The translations under genes and the position numbers were made by a program. The notes under the pieces are model-generated. The model searched no databases and was not told the origin of the DNA. It saw only the letters and a program-made list of their open reading frames with translations. Shown here one piece after another: positions 9,380 to 58,335 of a stretch of 64,000 nucleotides of DNA (position 1 is its first letter; each line of letters begins with the position of its first letter). The stretch is taken from positions 1,798,001-1,862,000 of the forward strand of contig NZ_CP076019.1 of the NCBI RefSeq assembly GCF_018623055.1. Direction: 5' to 3'. This DNA is from Halorubrum sp. 2020YC2. GTDB lineage: Archaea; Halobacteriota; Halobacteria; Halobacteriales; Haloferacaceae.

Positions 9380-9524
9380 CGGCGGAAAACTCCTCCAAAG
9401 CCCCAGTCGCTCGTTTATAAATAGACACTAGCAGATCGGCGGAAAACTCCTCCAAAGCCCCAGTCGCTCGTTTATAAATAGACACTAGCAGATCGGCGGA
9501 AAACTCCTCCAAAGCCCCAGTCGC
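9380..9524. repeat. 57-bp tandem satellite, about 2.5 units
   Basis: Units at 9380-9436 and 9437-9493 are identical; a third copy is cut off after 31 bases (9494-9524). Each full unit contains TTTATAAATA, a strong TATA-like palindrome, and CAAAGCCCCAGTCGC. Because 57 is divisible by 3 the minus strand stays open and reads a 19-residue repeat, but there is no independent sign that it is translated. The same 57-bp period recurs, degenerate, in copy 2 (58125 and 58182). Confidence 0.93.
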
Positions 9525-9612
9525 GAGGCGGGCGCACGCTCGCTGTGCTCCTCGGTCGCTCACTCCGTTCGCTCCCTCCGGTGCTTGCGTCACCTGCGCC
9601 CGCCTCGCGACT
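9519..9612. repeat. 18-bp perfect inverted repeat with 58-nt loop
   Basis: AGTCGCGAGGCGGGCGCA at 9519-9536 is exactly complementary to 9595-9612. The left arm is also the end of the truncated third satellite unit, so the satellite array and the hairpin are joined. Copy 2 keeps a 9-bp core of this stem (57977-57985 with 58110-58118). Confidence 0.9.
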
Positions 9613-9836
9613 GCCCCTTTGAGTCCCACCCCGCACAGCACCGCAACCGCACCTCACGCCTCCCCAGCCTCGTCGCTGGCGGCTAGCGCCGCCAGCGACT
9701 CCCTCGCGCGTGCGATTCGCGCCGCGTTGCGGCGCTCATCGGCACGCGCCACCGCACGGAGTTCATTTATAAATCACATCAGCGTCGTCGCCGCCGCAGA
9801 CGCACCTTTTAGGTCGCAGGGGGTCGCGGATTCGGT

Positions 9837-10763
9837 ATGATCGACAGGCTGCTCGGGCGCGCCGAGCTGAAAGAGCGGATCGAGGAGCTCGAAGAGGAGA
9901 AGCGCCACCTCGAACGCCGCGCCGAGGCCGAGGAGGAGCGCCGCTCCGACGCCGTCGCGGACCGCCAGCGCGCCGAGGAGCGCGTCAACGAGCTGGAACA
10001 CCGGATCGAGTCGCTCGAAGAGCGATTGGAGCGCGCCGAGGGAACCGACGAGTCGATCGATTTCCGGCGCGTGAGCGACTACGGCGGCTCGCGGCTGGCG
10101 GACGCGCTCGACCGCTTCAGGGCCGTCGAGAGCGACGACCCCGAGGGGCTGCTCACGGCGTACGTCCCGGACGCGGACTCCGTCCCGGCGACCGTCTCGG
10201 ACTGGTTCGGTGACCGCACGGCGCTGGTCCGGCGGGCCGCGCCCGCCGTCGTCCTCGCTGACGACACCGGCGCGGTGAGCGCGGCGCTGACGCCGCCGGT
10301 CGAGCCGGAGCCGTTCGACCGGTGGAGCGACCGCTTCCGACTCGATGACGGGTGGTTCCGCCCGACCGGCCGGTTCGCGTTCGCCGTCGTCCGCTCGGAC
10401 GTCTTCGCCGTCGGCACCTACGAGGGCGACGAGCGGGTCGCCTTCGAGGGGTTCACGAGCGACGTGAAGGAGGCGCACTCGAAGGGCGGCTTCTCGCAGG
10501 GGCGCTTCGAGCGCCGCCGCGAGGGGCAGATCGACGACCACCTAGAGAAGGCGAACGAGGCGCTCGCCGCGGTCGCGGAGGGAGAGGGCGTCGCGGAGGG
10601 TGGGGGAGTCGACCGCGTGATCGCCGTGGGCGAGCGCAGCGTCCTCGGTCGGGTGCGCGACCGCGCCGACATCACCGACGTCTCCGACGCAACCGGGAAG
10701 CCGGAGGCGGCGCTCGACGACGCGTTCCGCGACTTCTGGCGGGTCCGCGTCCGCGCCATCTGA
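9837..10763 (+). CDS. Vms1-like (VLRF1) ribosome-rescue release factor
   Basis: A 308-aa protein. Residues 1-70 are a charged coiled coil (ELKERIEELEEEKRHLERR). Residues ~75-300 match the archaeal Vms1/ANKZF1-like family related to eRF1. The segment HSKGGFSQGRFERRREGQIDDHLEK corresponds to the conserved catalytic loop with its glutamine. Vms1-type proteins release nascent chains from stalled 60S/50S subunits by acting on peptidyl-tRNA. It has its own TATA-like element (CCTTTTAGG near 9807), about 30 bases before ATG. Function is by family only; the coiled coil may bind the ribosome. Confidence 0.78.
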   Translation: MIDRLLGRAELKERIEELEEEKRHLERRAEAEEERRSDAVADRQRAEERVNELEHRIESLEERLERAEGTDESIDFRRVSDYGGSRLADALDRFRAVESDDPEGLLTAYVPDADSVPATVSDWFGDRTALVRRAAPAVVLADDTGAVSAALTPPVEPEPFDRWSDRFRLDDGWFRPTGRFAFAVVRSDVFAVGTYEGDERVAFEGFTSDVKEAHSKGGFSQGRFERRREGQIDDHLEKANEALAAVAEGEGVAEGGGVDRVIAVGERSVLGRVRDRADITDVSDATGKPEAALDDAFRDFWRVRVRAI

Positions 10764-49010: not shown

Positions 49011-49105
49011 AAGCCTCTGCGGTGGCGCGTGCCGACGAGCGCCCGATAGGGCGCGATGTCGCACGCGCAAGGGAGTGGTGCGGAGCAGGGCGGGACTCAA
49101 AGGGC
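49011..49105 (+). repeat. Dispersed structured repeat, copy 3 (short)
   Basis: Starts CTCTGCGGTGGCGCGTGCCGA, keeps the GAGCGCCC...GGGCGC stem, GCACGCGCAAGGGAGT and GCGGGACTCAAAGGG boxes of copies 1 and 2, but skips the 12-bp-arm hairpin block and has no satellites. The remainder of the 48973-49188 gap shows nothing else. Confidence 0.75.
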
Positions 49106-49188
49106 CAGCCGTGAGAACGGCGCTCGTGACCATTAGGACGCGGATCCTCGGGGTCGACATCGTCGCCCGTCCGTGTTTCCTCGCTGGG

Positions 49189-57745: not shown

Positions 57746-57819
57746 TCACGGGAGTAGGTATCGCAGATCGCCGGCCGCGAGGTCGTATTTAAATAACCGT
57801 GAGCGGCGGCGGCGGTCGC

Positions 57820-58258
57820 TTATAAAGAACTCTGCTGTGGCGCGCCCCGGTGAGCGGCCGTCAGGCCGCGAACCGACGGTGCGAGGGAGTCGCTGGCGGC
57901 GCCAGCCGCCAGCGACGAGGCTGGGGAGGCGTGAGGTGCGGTTGCGGTGCGGTGGGTGGGACCCAAAGGGGCAGCAGCGAGGCGGGCGTAGGCGACGCAA
58001 GCACCGCAGCGAAGGAACGGAGTGACTGAGCGAGGAGCGTGGTTCGAGAGAGCGAAGCTCTCTCGTCATCCCGAAAATCTCCGATTTTCGGGCGACAGCG
58101 AGCGTACGGCCGCCTCGCGGCTGGGGCTTTGATGGTTTTCGCCGTCGATCCACAATCAATCATTTATAAGAGAGGAGTTGAGGCTTTGGAGGTCCTCACC
58201 GCAGTAGTGTCGGTTACTTATAAACAGCCGACAGCAACACCGCTATTTTCCTTATAAA
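57820..58258 (+). repeat. Dispersed structured repeat, copy 2
   Basis: Occupies most of the 651-bp gap 57746-58396. Order as in copy 1: TTATAAAG, GGCGCG box, 12-bp-arm hairpin (57889-57900/57905-57916, loop GCCA), ACCCAAAGGGGCAG, GCGAGGCGG stem (57977-57985/58110-58118). The stem's loop holds two perfect hairpins absent from copy 1: CGAGAGAGC/GCTCTCTCG (58045-58065) and CCCGAAAATC/GATTTTCGGG (58070-58092). It ends in degenerate satellites with 57-bp period (GGCTTT at 58125 and 58182) and TTATAA boxes at 58164, 58218 and 58252. No gene seen. Confidence 0.85.
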
Positions 58259-58335
58259 CAACTGCGCCATCACACTGAGCGACGTACTCCCGCACTCGAG
58301 CAAGAAGCAACGCTCATCAGCCGGCTGTTTCAGGC

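Follow-up and report, generated by a model that had tools for sequence, protein, structure and literature searches.

A high-copy repeat family of haloarchaea with a predicted, covarying RNA structure

The nearest described repeats in haloarchaea are the PATEs (palindrome-associated transposable elements) and the SMR-A small mobile repeats of Haloquadratum walsbyi (PMC3119063). They are short, gene-free, palindrome-bearing and present in high copy number, small hairpin repeats nest in larger ones, and some sites hold the same element in opposite orientation in two strains ('SwitchRepeats'). PATEs share near-terminal palindromes with IS605-type transposons and are polymorphic between strains. 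The REP/BIME, ERIC and BOX-type extragenic palindromes of bacteria are intergenic and imperfectly palindromic, occur at about 100–200 copies per genome and are enriched near gene 3′ ends, but they are only 20–130 nt long. Eukaryotic SINEs such as Alu are dispersed, promoter-bearing, structured RNA units with a repeated tail and founder-type sequence classes. Large structured ncRNAs of unknown function, such as OLE RNA (PMC9723947), have an intricate conserved fold with conserved unpaired blocks in extremophiles, with a partner that was initially unknown. OLE is not known as a dispersed repeat of the kind presented here.

We have analyzed a 64,000-nt stretch of the chromosome of Halorubrum sp. 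2020YC2 (assembly GCF_018623055.1, contig NZ_CP076019.1, positions 1,798,001 to 1,862,000; to be referred to as the window). A preliminary description of this sequence had reported three look-alike loci, at 9.4, 49.0 and 57.8 kb, sharing a series of boxes and a 12-bp-arm hairpin in the same order. This observation is confirmed, and the family is far larger than was described. Covariance models built from copies of the family recognize the three loci in the order and on the strands reported. Copy 1 is on the minus strand (3′-half model at 9506–9671, 177 bits; 5′-half model at 9652–9755, 96 bits), and copy 2 is on the plus strand (57917–58135, 109 bits, E=5e-19; 57834–57936, 69 bits). Copy 3, also on the plus strand, is truncated (5′ half at 49019–49116, 59 bits, E=1.4e-7; the 3′ half scores only 20 bits). 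The features of the three copies are as follows.

9765–9774, minus strand: TATA-like box of copy 1 (ATTTATAAAT), about 14 nt upstream of box A
9702–9755, minus strand: domain 1 of copy 1, with box A (GCGGTGGCGCGTGCC), helix P1 with three covarying pairs, tandem G·A, hairpin P2 and box B (GCACGCGCGAGG)
9672–9699, minus strand: hairpin P3 of copy 1 (12-bp arms, loop GCTA)
9628–9671, minus strand: box C (GAGGCTGGGGAGGYGTGAGG) and G-rich linker of copy 1
9509–9627, minus strand: helix P4 of copy 1, with box D GGGACTCAAAGGGGCAG (9611–9627), a long arm with apical GACGYAAGCACCGCAGG / GGAGCGCAGCGAG, and box F CTGGGGCTTTGG (9509–9520)
9380–9524, minus strand: tail of copy 1, 2.5 perfect 57-bp satellites, each with box F and a TTTATAA motif
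57818–57827, plus strand: TATA-like box of copy 2 (GCTTATAAAG)
57834–57936, plus strand: domain 1, P3 (57889–57916) and box C of copy 2
57917–58135, plus strand: box C, linker, box D (57958–57974) and P4 of copy 2
58039–58102, plus strand: inserted double-hairpin module in copy 2 (GTGGTTC-hairpin-GTCATC-hairpin-CGACAGCGAG)
58136–58265, plus strand: degenerate tail of copy 2, with TTTATAA-type motifs at satellite spacing
49019–49116, plus strand: copy 3, a truncated element (box A, P1/P2, start of box B, box D) that has lost the TATA-like box, P3, box C and most of P4

Several details of the preliminary description need correction. It contrasted the hairpin loops TAGC and GCCA as a sign of selected structure, but this compared opposite strands. 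Read on one strand, the P3 loops of copies 1 and 2 are GCTA and GCCA, one base apart, and the arms are identical, so this pair of copies is not evidence for selected structure, although the rest of the family is. It also assigned 57-bp satellites to both full copies. The satellite is perfect only in copy 1 (2.5 units, 100% matches). In copy 2 the unit is degenerate and is not reported by the tandem-repeat program (TRF), although the 57-bp spacing of the first two units can be counted by eye. Copy 3 lacks the TATA-like box, box C and most of P4 in addition to the hairpin. Moreover, the inserted double-hairpin module of copy 2 had not been noted.

The 15-nt box GGGACYCAAAGGGRC occurs 147 times in the 3.06-Mb genome with up to one mismatch, compared to none for the reversed control, which excludes chance. 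The 3′-half model finds about 150 copies, 148 distinct ones of which were used for the analyses below. On the sense strand (the strand of GGGACTCAAAGGGG), a TATA-like hexamer is found within 45 nt of box A in 93 of 127 copies, and 58 of these start 13–16 nt before box A. The other 34 copies lack such a box. At the usual archaeal spacing, transcription would begin at about the start of P1. P1 (GCGCGTGC/GCACGCGC) is extended by three pairs that differ freely between copies (TGC/GCA, GAT/ATC, GAC/GTC, TCC/GGA, GGT/ACC), and is followed by a symmetric GA/GA loop and hairpin P2. Next come P3, box C, the G-rich linker, box D, the long P4 arm with its conserved apical blocks, box F, and a tail of 57-bp units, each repeating box F and a TTTATAA motif. 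One or more inserted hairpin modules, of at least five recurrent types, are present in 65 of 147 copies, and the module type of copy 2 is found in 28 of 147. These modules look like small mobile repeats of their own that target this element, reminiscent of the SMR-A repeats targeting PATEs.

The structure is under strong constraint. In alignments of 28–29 copies of this genome, 13 of 26 and 17 of 41 consensus pairs show changes on both sides. Across genera, 39 matches from three single-copy Halorubrum species and eleven other genera were aligned. In this alignment 95.2% of cells pair, 35 of 41 pairs have double changes, and 305 cells changed on both sides. None of 500 shuffles reaches any of these measures, and partners slid by 1–3 columns pair in 33–44% of cells. 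However, this alignment is fitted to the model, and a strand test was therefore made independently of any model, on raw hairpin arms of the copies of this genome. It gave 57 G·U against 16 A·C mismatches (p=1.5e-6), whereas a purely DNA constraint predicts equal numbers. This supports RNA of the promoter-proximal strand as the constrained molecule. On the other hand, the low absolute number of G·U pairs suggests that DNA-templated correction of quasipalindromes also contributes, and much of the stem turnover may be DNA-templated.

Relatives occur in 51 of 52 genomes of the genus, with 1 to at least 150 copies, three species having only one detectable copy. In the class, 297 of 391 sampled genomes and 72 of 86 genera match at E≤1e-4, and fourteen genomes searched more fully gave 1–85 copies. 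The aligned sequences show the same boxes with GACTGAAAGGGGC...GGGGCTTTC in place of GACTCAAAGGGGC...GGGGCTTTG, a paired change. A pattern with both boxes, run over 84,980 named genomes, hit only haloarchaea among the 80 records listed. The element was not found in phage records, and 31 viral contigs with the bare 15-mer lack the fold. A match was found in 5 of 72,556 plasmid records, the most significant one being on a Halorubrum salinarum plasmid. In other genera (loci L118, L138 of genome G172, L139 of genome G168, L379 of Halorarius litoreus and L391 of Halonotius roseus; G and L numbers denote genomes and loci of the survey), the P4 units often occur as divergent pairs, in the named records about 35 bp apart.

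A search of Rfam (release 15, 4227 models) at the gathering score finds only a tRNA in the window. For copy 1, the best sub-threshold match has 22.7 bits against a gathering score of 80, and nothing relevant was found at E≤1. Literature searches, including one for the box sequences themselves, found no description of the family, although only open-licence papers were covered and an earlier report under another name is possible. Papers on expanded 5S rRNA and on haloarchaeal vesicle ncRNA showed no link to it. With about 250 nt plus a tail, several domains, conserved unpaired boxes and a promoter-like box, the element differs from REP/BIME, ERIC and BOX-type repeats, although it shares with REP/BIME-like repeats its extragenic location, palindromic stems, high copy number and enrichment near gene 3′ ends. 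In comparison with OLE RNA, what differs is its presence at about 150 places per genome. With the PATEs and SMRs it shares the palindromic, nested habit. In contrast to PATEs, it is stable in place between species, has a covarying multi-domain fold and a positioned TATA-like box, and shows no relation to the TnpB loci of the genome. The 3′-half model, run on the 15 TnpB-type loci of the genome, finds only ordinary nearby copies of the family in three of them, and the rest are near-chance matches under 16 bits, which rules against a TnpB/omega-RNA origin. We regard the family as a structured-RNA family that is also a high-copy dispersed repeat.

None of the 148 copies lies in a predicted gene, with genes called by codon usage. 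Of 147 copies, 57 lie between convergent genes, 41 are antisense to both neighbors, 28 are sense, and 21 lie between divergent genes. Convergent gaps are enriched relative to 426 neighboring element-free gene pairs, of which 61 are convergent (39% against 14%, p=2.6e-9), and the 3′ neighbor faces the element in 98 of 147 copies (p=6.5e-5). However, avoidance of promoters would give the same bias, and this alone does not show a cis function. Read-through from the upstream gene does not explain the copies lacking a TATA-like box, as the box is in fact commoner behind co-directional genes (58 of 71) than elsewhere (33 of 56).

The places of the element are stable between species, while its contents are not. 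In 800 kb of the genome of another species (G022), with flanks mostly 85–95% identical to those of the present genome, 39 sites with both flanks alignable could be compared. The element is in the same orientation at 37 of them. At one site, that of copy 2, it is inverted together with its flanks between 9-bp inverted repeats. The whole intergenic segment (window 57749–58310; G022 about 1118458–1119164) is inverted in place there, bounded by short inverted repeats (CGGGAGTA/TACTCCCG) outside the element. At the remaining site G022 has lost the element, and a small array of about 27-bp tandem repeats (TAGACGTACCCCTCCTCGACGAGCAGT) is found instead (about 1247066–1247814). Inside the element, orthologs are hardly more alike than random pairs (P2 0.643/0.636, P3 0.596/0.586, linker 0.683/0.658, P4 0.699/0.667), whereas the flank up to box A keeps 0.66–0.79 against 0.46–0.54. 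Simple cassette swapping does not account for this, as identical P2, P3 or P4 strings are shared by few loci and P4 is almost always unique, so that stems mutate as well as exchange.

At the site of copy 1 (site 1), 28 species have a full or nearly full element and two have remnants. Two others that are not sister to each other (G025 and G028) lost the linker and P4 through the same 8-bp direct repeat GGCTGGGG of boxes C and F. Seven species, mostly in an early-branching group, have a short empty gap between the same two genes. The edges of the empty gaps in remoter species are too diverged to define. No target-site duplication was recognized in the empty/filled comparison of the sister species G005 and G007, at this one site. 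The sister species G001 and G023 share P3 exactly and P4 nearly so, while P2 differs and G023 has gained a double-hairpin module inside box A. Contents therefore pass vertically over short times and are replaced over longer ones. Between genera, 26 loci were compared with the flanking genes of the 148 copies, with only scattered matches. The best one, upstream of a Hel308-like helicase gene in Halorubrum and Halobaculum (genus names inferred), proved empty or differently oriented in the species between them, and no claim of a shared site is made.

The copies also change in a coordinated manner. In the present genome, 118 copies are CAAA with CTTTG, 12 are CGAA with CTTCG, and only a handful are mixed. 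In G045 all eight copies sampled are CGAAG/CTTCG, in G048 all four are CAAAG/CTTTG, and G040 is mixed (5 to 3). G045 belongs to a supported clade whose members G039, G015, G046 and G033 also have CGAAG at site 1. A paired change thus appears across unlinked copies of one lineage, although only eight copies of G045 were sampled. This fits ectopic gene conversion, a shared partner whose preference shifted, or both. A late founder burst is a weaker explanation because site 1 is filled on both sides of the change.

The preliminary description had offered a structured RNA, a non-autonomous mobile element or a chromosome-organising element, and this interpretation is partly supported. The observations it had named as refuting did not materialize: there are about 150 further copies in this genome and copies in most related genomes, covariation is extreme, and the three loci are not one recent duplication. 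The structured-RNA reading is strongly supported by the covariation, the strand bias and the positioned TATA-like box, whereas mobility is supported only as history, by patchy presence and absence and variable copy number. We take the family to be ancient, haloarchaea-specific, repeated non-coding RNA genes (or RNA-gene-derived repeats) of mobile origin, with a probability of roughly 0.5. In this view, each full copy is predicted to be transcribed from its own TATA-type promoter, starting at about P1, into an RNA of roughly 250 nt with three domains (P1/P2, P3, P4) joined by strongly conserved unpaired boxes. The RNA would act in trans through one shared partner, a protein or RNP that reads the conserved boxes. 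The partner would keep the fold while ectopic gene conversion and hairpin shuffling replace the stems. The family would have spread by a mobile mechanism, amplifying early in the main Halorubrum lineage and separately in other genera, and would now be nearly immobile, with occasional losses. The analysis itself establishes the copy number, the constraint on the structure, the bias to the sense-strand RNA, the intergenic location, the conservation of place between two species, and the turnover and coordinated change of copies within genomes. Transcription, function, action in trans, the common partner and the means of spread are inferences. Against this view, the single-copy species argue that high dosage is not needed, single sites are lost, truncated or empty, 34 of 127 copies lack a TATA-like box, and neither a mobilizing enzyme nor an RNA partner was found.

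The main rival is a chiefly selfish, non-autonomous mobile element (SINE-, MITE- or PATE-like), with the conserved fold and boxes needed for mobilization by an enzyme supplied in trans and the satellite tail and inserted hairpins as by-products. This is possible but less likely. The range of copy number within one genus, the filled and empty states at site 1, the genus-specific sequence types (which fit founder bursts), the nested hairpin modules and the SINE-like layout of 5′ promoter, structured body and tandem tail are in its favor. However, 38 of 39 comparable sites are shared with G022, no clean young insertion and no near-identical pair of full copies were seen, the TnpB loci show no related ends, and structure is kept in copies that have not moved. 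By eye, and without comparison to transposon ends, the two ends of the element (GCGGTGG... and CTGGGGCTTTGG...) are not inverted repeats of each other. In comparison with SINEs, no reverse transcriptase link is known, no target-site duplication was seen at the one site compared, sites are conserved and copies change in concert.

A cis-acting boundary element, such as a bidirectional terminator, 3′-end stabilizer or antisense promoter between convergent genes, is unlikely. The enrichment in convergent gaps and the antisense 3′ neighbors would fit, but 90 of 147 copies are not between convergent genes, copy 2 is inverted in place in G022, sites are empty or truncated in relatives, and avoidance of promoter regions explains the bias equally well. 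Equally unlikely is a DNA-level element (cruciform, recombination or chromosome-organising site) whose perfect inverted repeats are kept by replication template switching (quasipalindrome correction) and not by RNA selection. Stems do swap wholesale with few G·U intermediates, and the recurrent P4 deletion in G025 and G028 also fits. The apical arm of P4 is flipped relative to boxes D and F in G019 and apparently in the lone copy of G049, as if recombined across its own arms. In the only detected copy of G026, the unpaired GGGG of box D reads CCCC, turning the GGG/GGG internal loop into a continuous perfect helix. On the other hand, G·U exceeds A·C on one strand only, which DNA symmetry does not predict, the TATA-like box sits at a fixed distance on that strand, and the unpaired boxes are conserved across genera.

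A bolder reading, which we consider doubtful, is that haloarchaea carry a class-wide family of 10 to about 200 dispersed, individually promoted ncRNA genes per genome, a prokaryotic counterpart of SINE-derived RNA families. All copies would serve one trans-acting RNP or regulator, so that their stems drift freely and swap, and paired changes spread through all copies together with the partner's preference.

If transcribed, the family would be among the most numerous ncRNA gene families known in archaea. A large covarying RNA fold at about 150 places per genome, across most of an archaeal class, would add a major component to haloarchaeal genomes. Its stable places with freely exchanged contents make it an unusually clear natural case of concerted evolution in a prokaryote, and make testable whether structured RNA, rather than DNA, is what keeps such repeats alive.

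The gene next to copy 1 (window 9837–10763) matches the acVLRF1 / archaeo-eukaryotic release-factor families.
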